Shown piece by piece: positions 5,279-12,774 of a DNA stretch of 62,209 nucleotides (within the stretch, counting starts at the first letter, position 1; each line of letters starts with the position of its first letter). This stretch comes from an uncultured Flavobacteriales bacterium (GTDB taxonomy: Bacteria; Bacteroidota; Bacteroidia; Flavobacteriales_D; Sanyastnellaceae): NCBI GenBank assembly GCA_938085105.1, contig CALKGK010000010.1:1-62209 (forward strand). Reading direction: 5' to 3'. Under the pieces are notes generated by a model. That model was not told the DNA's origin. It saw only the letters and a program-made list of their open reading frames with translations, and searched no databases. The position numbers and the translations under genes were made by a program.

Positions 5279-5686
5279 TTAATGACTCACCATAGGATCT
5301 AAGCCTTTCGCTTGATCCACAAAATTTTCCAACTGCTTCAAAGAAGGAACCCTTCTCACCAACTTCTTTTTGGCGTTAAGATCGTTCATCGCAGTGTGCA
5401 AATTGGCTGCGTTTCTGTTGCGAAGTTCTTTCACGGTATCCACTCCACTGGCTTCCAAAAGTTCAGAAGTCTCACTTCCTACCCCTTTGATGCGGTAAAG
5501 ATCTGCCATGTTTACCCACTTCAAGATTTTTTTCTCGTCAATCCCACTGCTTGAAGCAATGGACTTGCGGCCCGATTTGTTGTGGCCCGCTTTCAAAAGC
5601 CCTTCAACGGTGCGAATTCCAGCAGAACGAAGTTTGTCTGCCATCGCAGGTCCGATGCCTTCGATATCATCAATTTTATTTGACAT
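5279..5686 (-). CDS. Small helix-hairpin-helix protein (DUF4332-like)
   Basis: A 135-residue protein with two helix-hairpin-helix-like motifs: IEGIGPAMADKLRSAGI near the N-terminus and RIKGVGSETSELLEASGV in the middle. This layout fits the DUF4332 family. The HhH motif usually binds nucleic acid non-specifically, but no catalytic domain is attached. Start ATG 5686 is chosen because the next residues begin the first HhH motif. It is a single-gene unit with its own terminator. DNA or RNA binding is inference from the fold. Confidence 0.75.
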   Translation of the reverse strand: MSNKIDDIEGIGPAMADKLRSAGIRTVEGLLKAGHNKSGRKSIASSSGIDEKKILKWVNMADLYRIKGVGSETSELLEASGVDTVKELRNRNAANLHTAMNDLNAKKKLVRRVPSLKQLENFVDQAKGLDPMVSH

Positions 5687-5812
5687 GGTGCTATAAATTT
5701 GGTTAAACACTTCAATTTTAGTGAAAATATTGAAACGCTCTGCACTAAGAATCAGGATGAAAGGTTAGTTTTTTGTTAAGGTATGATCGCCTCGGTGCTC
5801 TGGAAACGTGCA

Positions 5813-6997
5813 TCATTCAAAACACCCCATTTCCAATCCTTCCTTCATGGCCTTTTCAGCATAAAACTCCTTTTCCTGATGGATGCGGGCAAAAGCATCG
5901 CAAGCGGCGTCATATTGTCTGAGTTTTTTCAAACACATGGCCGAATAAAAAGCACTTTCTCTTCGGAACACATTCACCCCATCGTTTTCTTCTGTGCTCA
6001 ATTGTGCTAAACTCCCCTCAAAATCCTGAAGCTCATAAAGGCACATCGCACGGTAAAATCGTCCGTTGGCATCTCCCGGAAACTGATCGAGAATGAGTGC
6101 AAACATGTCGGCAGAAGCTTGGTAATTTTTAGCCGCAAACTCAGCGAGGGCCATGTCCAAATATTCGGTGTACTGAATTTGAAAGGAGGGCTCTTCGTTG
6201 CTCTTGTTTTTCTCAACGTAGGTATTTTCGAAGGCGGGATGGAGTCCGGTATTCTTTTGCAGGTCTTCCAATGAAACCACTTCTTTGCGCAAGTTGCGAT
6301 AGTCGGCCACTTTGTAGGTGCGTACGTGGTAAATTTCATTGCCGAGGCTGTGCTCCACCTTTTGGCGCACTTGCTCCGCCCGGTCGTCTTTGTAATGAGA
6401 AAGGCGGTTCAGAACGGTTTCCAATTCAATCTTCTGCATTTTTTCAGCGTCCAAAGTGAGTTCATCCACTCCATCTGAGCTTTGAGATACTTCCGTTTTT
6501 GCTTGGATGTTCTCCACCAAAACGAATGCATCATCTACCGGCTCTTCTTGATCTCCGTCTTGTTGGGTGATGAGGGCTATGGTGGAATCGTTGGAAGCTA
6601 CGGCAAGTACCTTCATTTCTCCTTTCCCACCCTGTTCTTCTTTGTGGTCGATGGAATCTTGGTCTTTCAATACTTGTGCACGCTGCTCTTCAATGATTTC
6701 TTTTTGTTCTTGCTTCGCGAAGCTAAACCGCCAAATGGCTAGTATTACGAGTAGCCCCATCAAAACCATGCCGGTGTACCATCCCCATTGATTGGACGAT
6801 TTGCTCTTGAACCCTGCCTTGTTGTTCCAATAGCTCAAGGCTTCTGGATCCGCAAAACCATCCATCGCATCAGCCAAAAAGGGATCCTCAAGGGCCATCC
6901 TCTCCAAGCGATGAGCCGCTTTCGAACTCAATTCTCCCGCATGGTATTTGCGTATTTCCTCAGCGGAAACGGGATTATTTGTTGATTTGGATTTCAT
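5813..6997 (-). CDS. Membrane-anchored TPR protein, putative anti-sigma factor
   Basis: The 394-residue protein has three parts. An N-terminal module (residues 9-52, SAEEIRKYHAGELS...DPFLADAMDGF) is a short helical segment recurrent in Bacteroidota proteins next to sigma factors and TonB genes. A single membrane helix follows (about 72-90). The periplasmic part ends in TPR-like helices (about 279-394). ATG 6997 overlaps the sigma gene stop by four bases (ATGA), showing translational coupling. By position it should control the adjacent ECF sigma factor, but it lacks a recognisable zinc-binding anti-sigma domain or FecR domain, so the anti-sigma role is inference. Confidence 0.85.
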   Translation of the reverse strand: MKSKSTNNPVSAEEIRKYHAGELSSKAAHRLERMALEDPFLADAMDGFADPEALSYWNNKAGFKSKSSNQWGWYTGMVLMGLLVILAIWRFSFAKQEQKEIIEEQRAQVLKDQDSIDHKEEQGGKGEMKVLAVASNDSTIALITQQDGDQEEPVDDAFVLVENIQAKTEVSQSSDGVDELTLDAEKMQKIELETVLNRLSHYKDDRAEQVRQKVEHSLGNEIYHVRTYKVADYRNLRKEVVSLEDLQKNTGLHPAFENTYVEKNKSNEEPSFQIQYTEYLDMALAEFAAKNYQASADMFALILDQFPGDANGRFYRAMCLYELQDFEGSLAQLSTEENDGVNVFRRESAFYSAMCLKKLRQYDAACDAFARIHQEKEFYAEKAMKEGLEMGCFE

Positions 6998-7548
6998 CGT
7001 TTTTCTAGAATTAGCTGCAAATTTCGTTTGCCATTTTGAATGTAGCTTTTCACTTTTTTCAGTTCAAAACCGGTCTTTTCTGCAATGTCTTGGTAGCACA
7101 TTTCTTCCAAGTAAAAGAGCTTCACGCATCGGGCTTGATGAGGTTTGAGTTCGTCAAGAGCGCCTTCCAAGGCAAGAAGTTGACTTTCAAGGACGGTTTT
7201 TTCCTCCAAATGAGCTTGTCCGTCATCTTCCAAGTCCTTCATGAGCGATTCTGGGGCACGTTTTTTACGCAAACGCATGAGGCATTCGTTTTTCACCACC
7301 ACGTACAACCAGCCTTTGAACTGCTTCACTTCCTTCACTAAGAGTTCCTTCAATATTTTTTCGAAAACTTGCATCACGAGGTCGTCCGCATCCGAAGTGT
7401 TTTTCAAGTACTTCATGGCCGTACCAAAGGCCAAATGGGCGTGCCTTTCGTAAAGCACCCCCACCAGCTTTTGATCTTGAGTTTCGCGATACTGCTCTAC
7501 CAGCATCTCGTCGCTCCATCGTGTGATATGTTTTCTTCTTTTGATCAA
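6994..7548 (-). CDS. ECF-type RNA polymerase sigma factor
   Basis: A 184-residue sigma-70 family protein with region 2 (about residues 15-85, DADDLVMQVFEKI) and region 4 (about 125-180, YQDIAEKTGFELKKVKSYIQNGK as helix-turn-helix). It would direct RNA polymerase to a dedicated promoter set. The only start that keeps the conserved N-terminus (WSDEMLVEQYRET) is a TTG at 7548; the first ATG would remove 14 residues. The TTG lies two codons after the stop of the plug gene, in the same frame. It overlaps the TPR gene by four bases. Confidence 0.92.
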   Translation of the reverse strand: MIKRRKHITRWSDEMLVEQYRETQDQKLVGVLYERHAHLAFGTAMKYLKNTSDADDLVMQVFEKILKELLVKEVKQFKGWLYVVVKNECLMRLRKKRAPESLMKDLEDDGQAHLEEKTVLESQLLALEGALDELKPHQARCVKLFYLEEMCYQDIAEKTGFELKKVKSYIQNGKRNLQLILEKR

Positions 7549-7551
7549 ATG

Positions 7552-8277
7552 TTATCGGCTCTGACTAGCAATCCATTCGTTGTAAAGGTCAAAATAATTC
7601 TTGGATTCAACCACAATAACTCCACCGGTTAAATCGCCATACTTCGCAGGAACCCCACCAGTGTAAACTGAAATGGATCCAATCCCACTCGCGGGCAGAC
7701 TTTTGAAGTTACCTGTTATTTTCATTCCATCCACCATGTACTGCACGGCATTTGAACGAGAACCACGGAAATAGAGTTGTTGTCCGTCGGGGCTAGCGCT
7801 AACGCCAGCGGTCATTGTGGTGACCAAGGTTTTGATGTCGCGTTTCGCCGGGCTGTTCTTAATCATCTCCGCACTTACGGTGATTTTTGACGCTTCTTCA
7901 GGGTCGATCAAGGGAATGGCGTAGGTGATCACTTCCACTTCTGGACCCATAAAAGTGGCCACGCTCATGCTTTGGTCCTTGATGTAGGAGATTTGATCGG
8001 GATCAACACGAATTTCATTGATCTCTTTCGTCACATATCCAATAAAAGAAATGTTCAAGTTATAAATGCCCGGTTTCAAAGGTTTTAGGATGAACCGGCC
8101 GTCAATGTCGGTCATTGCACCAATTTGTTGTTCGCCAGCTTGAACAAAAACGTTAGCACCAATCAGGGCTTGATTGTTTTCGTCAAAAACCTTTCCTCTG
8201 ATTTCGCCAAAGTTGTTTTGCGCTTGTGCCAGGGTTACACCAAATAGGAGCGCCAGAAGTAGGATTACATTTTTCAT
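7552..8277 (-). CDS. TonB-receptor plug protein without a beta-barrel
   Basis: The protein of 241 residues has a signal peptide (1-19), a carboxypeptidase-like regulatory beta-sandwich domain (about 24-105, GKVFDENNQALIGANV...) and a TonB-dependent-receptor plug domain (about 125-225, with YFRGSRSNAVQYMVDGM and PAKYGDLTGGV). It then stops, where a receptor would continue with a 22-strand barrel of 500 or more residues. The ORF ends cleanly and no barrel-coding remnant follows; the next gene begins two codons later. A full receptor normally signals to FecI/FecR-type sigma systems through an N-terminal domain, so a soluble or tethered plug as the upstream partner of a sigma factor is notable. 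Its role is unknown. Confidence 0.88.
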   Translation of the reverse strand: MKNVILLLALLFGVTLAQAQNNFGEIRGKVFDENNQALIGANVFVQAGEQQIGAMTDIDGRFILKPLKPGIYNLNISFIGYVTKEINEIRVDPDQISYIKDQSMSVATFMGPEVEVITYAIPLIDPEEASKITVSAEMIKNSPAKRDIKTLVTTMTAGVSASPDGQQLYFRGSRSNAVQYMVDGMKITGNFKSLPASGIGSISVYTGGVPAKYGDLTGGVIVVESKNYFDLYNEWIASQSR

Positions 8278-8442
8278 GAGTTAAATTTTTAAAGGTTTTG
8301 AAACTGTTCTCTCCTTTAAGATGCAGCACATCATTCCTTTCCATAAAACCGATTGATTTTTTTTTGACTTTATTTTTTTTACCCGTTGAGACAACCTTTT
8401 TCCATGCTTACTTGTCTTATTGGAACTACAATGCTGCTAATT

Positions 8443-11400
8443 ATGAAGTACTTACGTCTACTCTTTGCTTTTGCTTTTCTTTTGATGCTCCACTCTGCTG
8501 AAGCGCACGGCCCTCGTTCTTCGTTTGAGTTCATTGCAAACCAGTCGCAATGGTCCAGCCAAGTTGAGTTTCGGGCGAGAATGGGGGGAAGTAGTGTTTA
8601 CCTCGAGAAGCATGCCTTCACTTGGAGTTTGATTCATCCAGAAGACCTTACTTTGGTGCACGATGCTCAACAGCTTTCACCCGAAGAACAGGCTCAATTG
8701 ATGCTGAGAGGACACGCTTACAAGGTGAATTTTATCGGGGCAAATGAGAATACGAGCCTTTCTGGTGAAGAGGAAAGTACACACTACTACAACTTTTTTA
8801 TTGGTGATGATGAAAGTAAATGGGCTTCGAGAGTGCCTGCTTTTAGCGCCGTGAAATACGAATCCTTGTGGGATGGAATTGGAATGCGTGTGTACAATAG
8901 CAACAACCACTTTAAATATGACTTTCTAGTAGCCGAGGGAGCAGATGCCGGTCAAGTGCGTTTCGAATACGATGGAATTGATGCAGTAAGCTTGGTTAAT
9001 GGCGACCTGCGTTTTGAAACGAATGCCGGTACCATTATCGAACAAGCGCCTTTCGCTTACCAAATGAATGGAACAAGCATGCAAGAAGTGCCTTGCGCTT
9101 ACACGCTTGTGAATGGCGAGGTAGGCTTCGAGTTTCCAGAAGGTTATGACACTAGTAGAATGCTCACCATTGATCCCATTGTGATAGCCAGCACACTTTC
9201 TGGTAGCGATGGAGCAAGTAATTATGGACATTGCGCAGCTTTTGATATTGCAGGAAATATTTATACTGGAGCCATTGCGTTTGGTGCTGGATATCCTACC
9301 ACTACGGGAGCATTTCAGGAAACTTTCTCCGCAGGTGGTGGTTTTGGAGTGGACATCGCTGTAAGTAAACTGAACCCCGATGGGACTGATCTTATCTACG
9401 CCTCTTTTCTTGGTGGTAGTAGCGGCGATTACCCGCACTCCCTGATTATCAATGATCAAGGAGAACTTTATGTTTACGGCTCCACAGATTCCCAAGACTA
9501 CCCCACTTCGACCAACGCATACGATGACACTCCCAATGGAGGAATTGACATTGTGGTGACCTGTTTAAATACCGATGGAACAGCGCTCGTTGGGTCTACT
9601 TACGCAGGTGGTGCGGGTACGGATGGACGAAACCAATTTTCAACGAACTACGGCGATCAATACCGAGGAGAGATTTTCTTGACCCAAGACGGTTTGCCCG
9701 TTATTGCGTCGAACACTGCCAGTGATGACTTTCCCACGACCATCAATGCGTATCAAACAACTTTTGGTGGAGGTGGTCAGGATGCTGCCGGACTCAGGTT
9801 CAATGCTTCTTTGAGCAATCTTTTGTGGTCGAGCTACTTTGGTGGAGCGGGAGATGATGTTGGCTTGGGTATTAGAATGGCTGAAAACGGCGACATAGTA
9901 ATGAGTGGTACGGGAGGAACAGGTCTTCCAACAACTGCAGGAAGCTATCAGCCAGAATTGGCGGGAGATCGCGATGGTTTTATTGTTCGTTTCAACCCAG
10001 CAGGAAGCGCCGTTAACGCTTGCACTTATTTTGGAACTACTGAACTCGACCAGTGTTTCTTCATTGATTTGGACAATGACGAAGATGTTTGGGTATATGG
10101 ACAATCTACAGGGGACATGCCCATCGTAGGTGATGTGTTTAACCAGCCCGATGGTTCTCTTTTCGTAAGTAAATTCAATACCGGCCTCACTTCACTTGAG
10201 GTGTCCAGCCGCATCGGTGAGGAAAGTCTGTTTGGCGGAACGGCAGCTGTTCCAGTTGCGTTTTTGGTCGATCGTTGCGACAATATCTATATCAGCGGAT
10301 ATAGTGCACAAGATGGATTACCACTAACAGATGATGCGGTTTATGACGATGGAGGTTTTTACCTTGCTGCCTTTGGAGTAGACATTTCTACCTTGGAATT
10401 CGGAACTTATTATCCATCCAATCACGTGGATGGAGGTACTTCTCGTTTTGATAAAAACGGAATTGTCTATCAAGGAGTTTGTTCTGGTGGCGATTTCCCT
10501 ACAAATGCAGACGCTTGGGGTCCGGTGCAAAATACCGGTTGGGACATTGGGGTGTTCAAGATGGACTTTGAAGTTTCTGGAGTGAATGCGAGCTTAACGG
10601 CCAGCGCTGAAGCTTTGAATGGGTGTGCACCACACACGGTTGATTTTCAGAACTACTCGGTAGGAAACATCTTTGAATGGGACTTTGGAGATGGTTCACC
10701 CATTTCTGATGAGTTCGAACCGTCCCACGAATACACCGATCCTGGTGTGTACGAAGTCCGTTTGATCTCCAGCGATGAACTTTCTTGCAACCTTGCGGAT
10801 ACAGCTTACATTGAAATCCAAGTAAGTGTGCCTACGGACTTTCAAGCGGCATTCACGAGTACGCTGAATTGTGAAGACTTGAGCGTCTCCACTCAAAACG
10901 AAACAGGAGTTGATTGGCTAGATTATACTTGGGATATGGGCGATGGAACCATTATTGAAGGATTTGAAGCGAATCATGCTTATGCCGAAGAAGGAGACTA
11001 CACCATTACCCTTTCTGCGGTAGACAACGGTTGTGATGGAGACGATGAAGCCACAGAAGTGGTGAGCATCGTGGGAGCGGTTCAGGCCGATTTCAGTGCG
11101 AGTGAACTTGAGGGCTGCGGTGAACTGGATGTGGACTTCTCCAACTTGAGCAACGGCTTGACCTACGAATGGAATTTTGGTGATGGAAGCGACCTCGTTT
11201 TTGATGAGGAAACCAGTCATACCTTCGTTGGTCCGAATACCTTTGAAGTCCAATTGATTGCTTTTCACCCAGAAAGCTGCAACCTCAGCGATACCACCAT
11301 GCTTGAAGTGAATGTCGGGGCAATTCAAGCCATTGAGTCGGACTTCAGCATTTTCCAAAGCGATTGTGAATTGCTCGAAGTAAGTGGTGAAGAGAATGCG

Positions 11401-12774
11401 ATTGGCCAAAACCTGAGCTATTCTTGGAACATGGGAGACGGAACGACTTACGACACTCCAAATGTGGTTCACAACTACGATGCTACCGGGATGTACAATG
11501 TAACGCTTCAAGTGTTTGACGAGCTGTGTGATCTTGAGTCCAGCAGCAACCTGGATGTAAACGTTCAGAACGAAGTTACCGCTCAGATTGGGAATGATCA
11601 GCTTTCGGCGTGTAATCCCTTTTCCATCGACTTCATGAACCAGAGTGCAGGAAATGTCTTTACGTGGGATTTTGGTGACGGTAGCGAATTGTATCAAGGG
11701 CAATTTGCCAGTCATGAATACCCCGATGCCGGAAACTATACCGTGACCCTAACTGTTGAGGGCGAAGGGGCTTGTGAAGGTGTAGATGTTACTACCATTG
11801 ATGTGGAAGTTATTCAAACCCCCACCATCGAATCGATTTTTGATGTGGAGCAAATGGGGGCCTGCGAAAGTTTAGAAATTGCTACAGAAAACCTCAGTAT
11901 TGGAGAAAACTTGAACTACCAGTGGATCATTGAAAACGATGTGTTTTATAACGAGAACACCACCTACACCTTCAACGGTGCAGGCAGTTACAATGTGGAA
12001 CTCACGGTTTCAGAAGACCTTTGTAACACCAGCAATACGTCTTCGCAAACCCTAGAAGTGATTCCGGGTATCGATTTCAACTTCCCTCCAGATGAACCCT
12101 TGTGCTACTATGAAGATGGTATCCAGCTCAGCAGCGGAGTTGACCCCAATGCCGATGTGGTTTGGTCTACCGGAGAAACCACACATGAAATATTCGTCAC
12201 TGAACCGGGAGATTATCTCATAACAGCAACAGTGAATAATTGCACCGATGTGGACGGAATTACTGTTTTCCCAGTTGAGAAAGTGGATGCAGATAAAGAA
12301 ATTGCCACCTGTGAAGGAACGCAAGCCCGTTTAGAAGTTCCTTATGCTGAAAGTAGCGATGTTGCTTGGTGTGAAGGAGAAGGAGTAGAGTTCATTTATG
12401 TTGACTCACCGGGTGAATACTGCTTTACTTTCCGAGATGAATTTGCCTGTTTGCAGGACGGAAGTATTGAGGTAGTGCATATCGATCGTGATGCTCGAAT
12501 ATTCATTCCGAACAGTTTTACCCCTAACAACGATGGAATCAATGACGTCTTCAAGCCTGAAGGAGAAGGGTTTAGTGAGTTTAAGTTAACCGTTTGGAAC
12601 CGTTGGGGAGAACTCGTATTTGTGAGCCAGCAAGCCAACGAGTATTGGAATGGGAACCATCAAGGAGGAGATTATTTTGTTCAGGATGGTTTGTATAGTT
12701 TTAGGATGGAATATCAGTCGACTTGTGATTCGGAAACGAAGATCAAGACCGGGTTTGTGAATGTGCTGAGATAA
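8443..12774 (+). CDS. Giant PKD-domain surface protein with T9SS type B sorting domain
   Basis: A secreted protein of 1443 residues. A signal peptide (1-22) leads into an N-terminal domain of the DUF7948 type (about 30-245), then SBBP-like beta-propeller repeats (about 250-690, repeated YASFLGG and YPTT motifs). Five clear PKD domains carry WDFGDGS variants, and a sixth is degenerate. The last 91 residues (from IFIPNSFTPNNDGIND) are the gliding-motility-associated / T9SS type B C-terminal domain, which directs export across the outer membrane. Start ATG 8443 is chosen because it begins the signal peptide. It is a paralogue of the protein at 48262. Adhesion or surface assembly is inference. 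Confidence 0.93.
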   Translation: MKYLRLLFAFAFLLMLHSAEAHGPRSSFEFIANQSQWSSQVEFRARMGGSSVYLEKHAFTWSLIHPEDLTLVHDAQQLSPEEQAQLMLRGHAYKVNFIGANENTSLSGEEESTHYYNFFIGDDESKWASRVPAFSAVKYESLWDGIGMRVYNSNNHFKYDFLVAEGADAGQVRFEYDGIDAVSLVNGDLRFETNAGTIIEQAPFAYQMNGTSMQEVPCAYTLVNGEVGFEFPEGYDTSRMLTIDPIVIASTLSGSDGASNYGHCAAFDIAGNIYTGAIAFGAGYPTTTGAFQETFSAGGGFGVDIAVSKLNPDGTDLIYASFLGGSSGDYPHSLIINDQGELYVYGSTDSQDYPTSTNAYDDTPNGGIDIVVTCLNTDGTALVGSTYAGGAGTDGRNQFSTNYGDQYRGEIFLTQDGLPVIASNTASDDFPTTINAYQTTFGGGGQDAAGLRFNASLSNLLWSSYFGGAGDDVGLGIRMAENGDIVMSGTGGTGLPTTAGSYQPELAGDRDGFIVRFNPAGSAVNACTYFGTTELDQCFFIDLDNDEDVWVYGQSTGDMPIVGDVFNQPDGSLFVSKFNTGLTSLEVSSRIGEESLFGGTAAVPVAFLVDRCDNIYISGYSAQDGLPLTDDAVYDDGGFYLAAFGVDISTLEFGTYYPSNHVDGGTSRFDKNGIVYQGVCSGGDFPTNADAWGPVQNTGWDIGVFKMDFEVSGVNASLTASAEALNGCAPHTVDFQNYSVGNIFEWDFGDGSPISDEFEPSHEYTDPGVYEVRLISSDELSCNLADTAYIEIQVSVPTDFQAAFTSTLNCEDLSVSTQNETGVDWLDYTWDMGDGTIIEGFEANHAYAEEGDYTITLSAVDNGCDGDDEATEVVSIVGAVQADFSASELEGCGELDVDFSNLSNGLTYEWNFGDGSDLVFDEETSHTFVGPNTFEVQLIAFHPESCNLSDTTMLEVNVGAIQAIESDFSIFQSDCELLEVSGEENAIGQNLSYSWNMGDGTTYDTPNVVHNYDATGMYNVTLQVFDELCDLESSSNLDVNVQNEVTAQIGNDQLSACNPFSIDFMNQSAGNVFTWDFGDGSELYQGQFASHEYPDAGNYTVTLTVEGEGACEGVDVTTIDVEVIQTPTIESIFDVEQMGACESLEIATENLSIGENLNYQWIIENDVFYNENTTYTFNGAGSYNVELTVSEDLCNTSNTSSQTLEVIPGIDFNFPPDEPLCYYEDGIQLSSGVDPNADVVWSTGETTHEIFVTEPGDYLITATVNNCTDVDGITVFPVEKVDADKEIATCEGTQARLEVPYAESSDVAWCEGEGVEFIYVDSPGEYCFTFRDEFACLQDGSIEVVHIDRDARIFIPNSFTPNNDGINDVFKPEGEGFSEFKLTVWNRWGELVFVSQQANEYWNGNHQGGDYFVQDGLYSFRMEYQSTCDSETKIKTGFVNVLR

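Follow-up and report, generated by a model that had tools for sequence, protein, structure and literature searches.

What does a TonB plug domain do when its gene ends before the barrel and lies directly before the genes of a sigma factor and a membrane protein? The locus that raises this question lies in a 62,209-nucleotide stretch (the window) of contig CALKGK010000010.1, assembly GCA_938085105.1, from an uncultured bacterium of the Sanyastnellaceae (Flavobacteriales_D). Three genes are found on the minus strand, as a first-pass annotation had described: an exported plug protein of 241 amino acids (7552-8277), an extracytoplasmic function (ECF) sigma factor (6994-7548) and a tetratricopeptide repeat (TPR) protein with a single transmembrane segment (5813-6997). 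The sigma and TPR genes share the four-base overlap given there (6994-6997); the gap between the plug stop and the TTG start of the sigma gene is 3 bases, not two codons. The module is probably an auto-activating ECF circuit of the envelope-stress type, with the lone plug as its effector product. This reading draws on comparison with relatives, which shows the gene order, a shared promoter, a candidate regulon and the domains of the proteins.

The plug protein has a signal-peptide-like start (judged by eye) and lacks any cysteine. A CarboxypepD_reg-like domain occupies residues 26-92 (8002-8202; PF13715, CarbopepD_reg_2, 3.9e-15) and a TonB plug domain residues 130-220 (7618-7890; PF07715, 1.6e-11). 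The open reading frame (ORF) stops after the plug domain and has no barrel, as the first-pass annotation held. In an AlphaFold model (mean pLDDT 87.9) the protein ends in a helix at residues 228-240 (7558-7596), in the place expected for the first barrel strand; this C-terminal tail is of the KSYFDLY type in most relatives. In a fold search, residues 94-228 match the plug of FyuA (Z 12.3, root mean square deviation 2.2, 99 residues aligned). The closest paralogue in the same genome is a 1244-amino-acid receptor-like protein, with 41% identity over residues 5-228. A segment of the plug protein at residues 113-124 (7906-7941), EVEVITYAIPLI, aligns with EVEVVEYTVPLI of this paralogue and is named a TonB-box-like segment by its position and likeness. 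The 1244-amino-acid protein, and an 894-amino-acid protein discussed below, are called receptors by length and domain order; Pfam finds CarboxypepD_reg and Plug in them and no barrel model. The order CarboxypepD_reg, TonB-box-like segment, plug is that of SusC/RagA-type and other TonB receptors with a CarboxypepD_reg extension, and searches of PDB chains with the plug protein returned RagA, SusC homologues, receptors and carboxypeptidase-type domains. Unlike these receptors, the lone plug has no 22-strand barrel; it ends where the barrel would start, and carries a conserved tail. Its most plausible place of action is the periplasm, or the outer membrane on its periplasmic side.

The sigma factor has 184 amino acids from its TTG start, and the start at the corresponding place in the sister genome G001 also yields 184 (G-numbers label genomes of relatives and L-numbers their loci). 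It matches Sigma70_r2 (8.1e-12), Sigma70_r4_2 (1.9e-10) and TIGR02937 (79.6 bits; cut-off 42.9); the presence of regions 2 and 4 only identifies it as an ECF sigma factor. The TPR protein has 394 amino acids, and its Pfam matches, TPR_6/TPR_16, fall below Pfam's cut-off. Its model contains four N-terminal helices (residues 12-19, 25-37, 39-49 and 51-59), a membrane segment, a disordered linker and a C-terminal TPR domain (residues 276-389; 5831-6172; pLDDT >90 over most), which would be periplasmic. The membrane segment spans about residues 75-95 (6713-6775; hydropathy maximum 2.03 at residue 76), and exactly one hydrophobic segment is present in 124 of 130 distinct homologues. The closest PDB folds to the TPR domain are the TPR domains of the IpgC/SycD chaperones, YbgF and BamD (Z 14-15); these matches cover residues 233-394 only and do not touch the N-terminal domain.

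That N-terminal domain changes the picture given by the first-pass annotation, in which an anti-sigma factor was absent. The TPR protein is very likely a class I (zf-HC2-like) anti-sigma factor: residues 12-59 (6821-6964) hold the four predicted helices, and its gene lies beside that of its ECF sigma factor. The zinc ligands appear to be lost in the window, where the corresponding stretch reads LERMALEDPFLADA (matched by eye). Among the 130 homologues, 36 have the Hx3Cx2C zinc motif; among 78 homologues scanned, zf-HC2 is found by Pfam in 10 and an NCBIfam anti-sigma model matches 7. Class I anti-sigma domains are described in PMC7406223 as four helices with an optional zinc motif. ChrR, RseA and RsiW, anti-sigma factors of this class (ASDI), share the N-terminal four-helix domain, Hx3Cx2C being kept or lost within the family, the position beside an ECF gene and the attachment to the membrane (PMC7406223); the protein described here differs in its TPR sensor domain and in the plug gene of its operon. 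Few ECF genes in Bacteroidota lie beside class I anti-sigma genes; the same source gives only 6% of Bacteroidetes ECFs as adjoining such a domain.

One of the closest known systems is FecA-FecR-FecI cell-surface signalling. Both it and the module have the sigma factor, a one-segment inner-membrane regulator with a cytoplasmic N-terminus (presumed here) and a plug domain on the outer-membrane side (PMC9249621). The module lacks three defining features of that system, namely the barrel, the STN domain and the FecR domain, and its regulator instead joins a class I anti-sigma domain to TPRs. STN is absent from the Pfam matches of the window proteins up to E 1; FecR is absent from those of the window TPR protein up to E 1, and from the 25 families listed, of 36, for the 78 homologues. 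The first-pass annotation was thus right that the composition is unlike FecR systems. PMC9249621 also has fecIR driven by sigma-70, whereas the shared promoter described below suggests that the sigma factor here drives its own operon. It is very improbable that the module is a FecA/FecR/FecI-like pathway in which the receptor is split and its barrel encoded by another gene, nearby or elsewhere. The sigma factor, one-segment regulator and plug do share one locus, and a few loci have larger plug-bearing ORFs close to the module; however, the plug has no STN domain, the regulator has no FecR domain, and the larger neighbours are inconstant and bear plugs of their own (no search was aimed at barrel-only genes). 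These neighbours are L225:3850-6001 (at least 717 amino acids, 2e-21), L077:9789-12011 (740 amino acids, a weak match) and partial ORFs in L213, L223 and L236. A receptor neighbours the module sometimes, not constantly.

The lone plug is a family, not an accident of one contig. In a set of 60 genomes (59 relatives and the window's own genome), 31 of the 59 relatives also hold a lone-plug ORF, which makes 32 of 60. Plug and TPR protein occur together in 29 genomes, the plug only in 3, the TPR protein only in none, and neither in 28; a match to a 1062-amino-acid ORF in G037 (8.9e-4) was dropped from these counts as spurious. The plug-sigma-TPR run is intact on one contig in 24 of the 29 genomes with the TPR protein, the window's own included. 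Contig ends interrupt it in G001, G053 and G058; G046 has two tandem plugs on the sigma-TPR contig, some 3 kb upstream of the pair; and in G044 the plug is on one contig and sigma-TPR on another. The lone plug is not a chance feature, since 31 of 59 relatives carry it and 24 genomes have intact runs.

A scan of one genome per species, made with motifs derived from lone plugs, gave 319 relatives, of which the best 80 loci were kept; some contigs are shared with the 60-genome set. In all 80 the plug ORF measures 152-375 amino acids from stop to stop and no barrel follows. Plug, sigma and TPR genes stand in order in 65. Among the other 15, two have the sigma gene and then a contig end, one has the TPR gene without a sigma match, two end earlier, and 10 have neither gene behind the plug despite room. 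The linkage to sigma and TPR genes proposed by the first-pass annotation is hence widespread among these best 80 loci and not universal. None of the 80 continues into a barrel; full-length plug-bearing homologues exist as a separate clade. All 80 come from metagenome-assembled genomes or uncultured bins, which may account for the apparent lack of prior work.

From the TPR side, a profile match at 1e-20 is found in 105 of 395 genomes of the class. Sixty loci were read, namely those not already examined with E up to 8.4e-43; this sets aside G222, G391 and G172 (E 7.7e-42 to 1.6e-40) and eight matches already examined. The sigma gene lies directly upstream of the TPR gene in 60 of 60. A lone plug is present in a same-strand run in 25 of 60 (a share biased upward, as the profile was built from plug-linked loci), is divergent beside the sigma gene in 15, and is non-adjacent in 20. 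Seven of these 20 belong to family f9, most of whose plugs lie elsewhere.

Two other arrangements in these loci were considered and set aside. An apparent sigma-TPR fusion at L087 (499 amino acids) is an ORF-calling artefact, with a normal sigma gene there. A VWA/YfbK protein is not a conserved partner, as it occurs in only 2 of 202 loci. At L206:4414-6339 and L229:3076-5076 such a protein, with a CarboxypepD_reg domain, is encoded divergently from sigma-TPR and preceded by a copy of the operon promoter (19.1 and 28.4 bits, respectively). At L206 this promoter-bearing VWA gene comes first and the lone plug follows it. Two tandem lone plugs are found at L090:5861-7449, with a separate promoter before each (23.9 and 27.4 bits), followed by ORFs of 652 and 213 amino acids and then sigma-TPR.

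A tree of 86 plug domains separates divergent plugs by a branch with support 99/97 and receptor plugs by one with 99/93. It used 31 of 91 operon plugs, after removal of plugs shorter than 190 residues and of those identical over the final 100. The tree is compatible with descent of lone plugs from the receptor and with the reverse. That the plug is a decayed receptor remnant, standing by chance before a sigma gene, has almost no likelihood and was rejected. Its nearest full-length relatives are indeed receptor-like, at the identity given above for the window's own genome; against this, the lone plug is found throughout the kept loci, 14 columns (plug hallmarks included) are invariant among 33 sequences, the gene has its own promoter, and the receptors form their separate tree group.

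The closest full-length relative is a receptor-like protein of about 1240 amino acids with CarboxypepD_reg and plug (L183:2453-6187; L184-L188), found in nearly all 60 genomes. Of six loci read, five have a long exported-looking ORF directly behind it; the exception is L184, where 1.5 kb separate the receptor gene from the next long ORF. No PDB relative was found, and the portion of the partner ORF that was scanned has no Pfam match. Membership of the receptor in the F. johnsoniae β-barrel assembly machinery (BAM) complex, or among SusC-like BAM parts, was considered and dropped; the window genome's 1244-amino-acid receptor has no PDB match at 1e-3. In family f16 a promoter-bearing lone plug (L197:4836-5525, L198:4853-5542; 23.9 bits) lies about 1 kb upstream of the 1240-amino-acid receptor. 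A gene of 183-185 amino acids sits between the two, and those genomes have only a partial match to the TPR protein.

A conserved promoter also appears to connect the plug with the sigma factor. An unprimed motif search in 91 plug upstream regions returned a dyad, TATG/CATC, 18 bases apart in 44 of 91 (best printed shuffle 12), refined to TTATGGAAT-N13-GCATC, in which the spacer length hardly varies (it is the same in 61 of 69 good sites). The window has one such ECF-type site before the operon, TTATGGAAA-N13-GCATC, on the minus strand at 8320-8346. It has one mismatch to the consensus and scores 25.4 bits; the next best site in the window has 11.0 and the shuffled maximum is 14.5. The position weight matrix was trained on 60 plug upstream regions, including the window site and one f9 site (L101); the f9 plugs L190-L195, the divergent plugs and the sigma upstream regions are outside the training set.

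Sites were tallied at a cut-off of at least 14 bits, leaving aside plugs with identical last 100 residues, plugs under 190 residues, and L207 (323 amino acids, contig end). A site precedes 78 of 89 operon plugs, a partly circular count given the training set (2 of the 91 had too little upstream DNA), and 16 of 17 divergent plugs. Unlinked plugs, with no sigma gene within 900 bp, have a site in 9 of 14 cases in genomes with the TPR protein and in 1 of 12 in genomes without a full-length one, the single positive being at a contig end. The figure is 2 of 3 for f16 and other plugs of genomes with partial TPR matches, 0 of 8 for receptors and 0 of 394 for other ORFs. In 8 of 17 divergent-plug loci a further site precedes the sigma gene. 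Divergent plugs often have CGTC where others have CATC. Mapping in F. psychrophilum has defined a class of ECF promoter that has a CGT box (PMC9723704); the resemblance to CGTC is a likeness only.

Family f9 offers the strongest independent case, at the level of sequence, for a promoter shared by plug and sigma genes. Its plugs and sigma-TPR pairs are on different contigs, and other genes flank the plugs read on both sides. Sites nevertheless precede 6 of 6 untrained plugs (two are near copies) and the sigma genes in seven genomes (L224, L234, L235, L238, L240, L245 and L246). G407, an f9 genome with a plug and no full-length TPR match, has no site. A further site (20.5 bits) lies just upstream of a 667-amino-acid protein with a weak plug-profile match (L194:2208-4211). 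The conserved promoter before the plug marks it as a product of the circuit, and the plug would be its most constant one.

The promoter also points to further targets. Sites were searched in 25 genomes with the TPR protein (about 89 Mb; 22 of the 28 such relatives plus G443, G247 and G367) and in 25 without it (about 61 Mb; of 31). With up to one mismatch allowed, 124 sites are found in the former (26 for the reversed pattern) and 32 in the latter (9), the reversed-pattern control underestimating the background. Because that control is too mild, exact sites were used as the basis for the regulon: 33 in genomes with the TPR protein and 4 in those without. One of these four, in G025 (an 85% complete assembly), has the same sequence as a site in its congener G006. 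The 33 exact sites of genomes with the TPR protein comprise 14 in the module and 19 outside it. For 18 of these 19, an ORF with an N-terminus that looks exported or membrane-anchored (judged by eye) begins 3-157 bp downstream, a distance measured from where the 36-base scoring window ends; L368 is without one. CarboxypepD_reg is matched in L349, L352, L365 (below Pfam's cut-off), L351, L353, L359 and L360, and Pfam finds none in L361, L350, L362, L364, L366, L367 and L355; the scan did not take in L321, L342, L346 and L363. Two gene types seem to recur, by a grouping made partly by eye. One is a protein of 438-458 amino acids with a CarboxypepD_reg-like start, followed by a DUF5723 protein in G013 and G006; the other combines a cysteine-bearing N-terminus, a membrane segment and a CarboxypepD_reg domain.

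The window's own genome has two good extra sites. One (L357, 22.1 bits) precedes the 894-amino-acid protein with CarboxypepD_reg and plug, a TonB receptor by length; the other (L358, 23.5 bits) precedes a 110-amino-acid tRNA_bind protein. Both targets have site-bearing counterparts in G001: L359, with the receptor appearing as two ORFs, and L354. In each of the two genomes of the genus the tRNA_bind gene (L358:3900-4232, by Pfam; L354:3742-4074) lies 114-120 bp behind a copy of the promoter; its product is odd for an envelope regulon. A site at contig C33 of the own genome (11.3 bits) overlaps an ORF start and was taken as chance.

The promoter type before the 894-amino-acid gene and the BamD-like and chaperone-like folds of the TPR domain would suit another explanation, that the plug stands in for TonB receptors that have not been assembled: plug that is free, or left over where barrels fail to assemble, would be read by the TPR domain, and the circuit would gauge receptor assembly. 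This is improbable. TPR folds look alike and such matches are generic; moreover, no BAM or periplasmic chaperone family is found among the Pfam-scanned regulon genes.

In the mechanism favoured here, the TPR protein would use its N-terminal class I anti-sigma domain to keep the ECF sigma factor bound at the inner membrane. Release would follow some event in the periplasm that acts on the long linker and TPR domain, and the free sigma factor would then read TTATGGAAT-N13-GCATC promoters, including that of its own operon with the plug as first gene. Further targets would be other exported proteins, several with CarboxypepD_reg, and in this genus the 894-amino-acid receptor-like protein. The plug would be exported and would fold as CarboxypepD_reg and plug without a barrel, retaining the TonB-box-like segment and the family-specific tail. 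Its job is most likely that of an effector: it might, for instance, occupy or guard the barrels of receptors, or titrate TonB, and might feed back on the TPR domain. TonB and empty receptor barrels are the first candidates for binding because the TonB-box-like segment and plug core are kept. The plug is favoured as effector over sole sensor since sigma-TPR pairs occur without an adjacent plug, and since some plugs are retained where sigma-TPR is gone, mostly without the promoter.

Several points weigh against this mechanism. Apart from the circularity of the operon-plug tally, five of the 14 unlinked plugs in genomes with the TPR protein have no site (L126, L149, L155, L162 and L206); sampling favours plug-linked loci, as such loci supplied the profiles and the scan relied on lone-plug motifs; and the ratio of one-mismatch sites to control in genomes without the TPR protein (32/9) is not far below that in genomes with it (124/26). 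The plug may still be the sensor, as the first-pass annotation suggested. On binding a ligand, or a barrel in trans, it would then signal via TonB or by direct contact with the TPR domain, releasing the sigma factor.

That suggestion is weakened and is rather unlikely. In its favour, the plug gene stands first in the operon and the TonB-box-like segment is kept. Its YF-type tail is kept in 13 of the 14 unlinked plugs of genomes with the TPR protein (L101 and L190-L195 among them; L206 is the exception) and is lost in two clades without that protein (L089/L171/L176 and L199-L203). On the other hand, 20 of the 60 sigma-TPR loci have no adjacent lone plug and plugs persist without sigma-TPR; in G123, G447 and G371 only the receptor of 1240-1250 amino acids matches the plug profile at 1e-45 (7 candidates scored per genome, so the absence is not strict). 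Three plugs from genomes without the TPR protein (L177, L180 and L196) retain the tail, a point that also counts against the effector mechanism, and the divergent plugs of family f32 have it replaced although the TPR protein is present. A role of the tail as TPR ligand is suggestive only. A bolder form of the sensor idea, that the barrel-free plug is a diffusible signalling part, is less likely still: through its TonB-box-like segment it would sense TonB load or empty barrels and tell the TPR anti-sigma factor, and the sigma factor would then make more plug and re-dress the envelope with CarboxypepD_reg proteins.

The nearest functional analogue of the effector proposed here is the type IX secretion system (T9SS) Plug, Fjoh_1759, a separate protein that closes an outer-membrane channel, namely SprA, when PorV is absent (PMC9127263). 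Identity with this protein was considered and dropped, as single-sequence and profile searches of PDB chains returned other proteins and not Fjoh_1759; nor was it listed in the fold search. A literature search for lone or orphan plugs, for plug, ECF and TPR together and for the promoter string gave nothing on this system (subscription journals were mostly outside the search), in agreement with the first-pass annotation, which knew of no described system of this composition.

Two neighbours frame the module. Divergent to it, at 8386-12774, is a 1462-amino-acid protein with DUF7948, PKD and a CHU_C type IX secretion signal, and an ORF of similar size is divergent to the plug in G001, G002, G013 and G032. 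On the 3' side of the TPR gene, outside the module, a DUF4332 helix-hairpin-helix protein is encoded at 5279-5710 (2.7e-43).

In TonB receptors, the plug is known as a gate built into the protein. The plug-only gene family suggests that a plug can work in trans, because it is kept across Bacteroidota, mostly under a promoter type shared with the sigma factor. What is new is the conserved operon promoter; the recurrence of promoter and gene trio across many Bacteroidota points to a cell-envelope control circuit not described before. The module would give this group a defined ECF circuit with a promoter consensus, whose regulon and trigger are directly testable.

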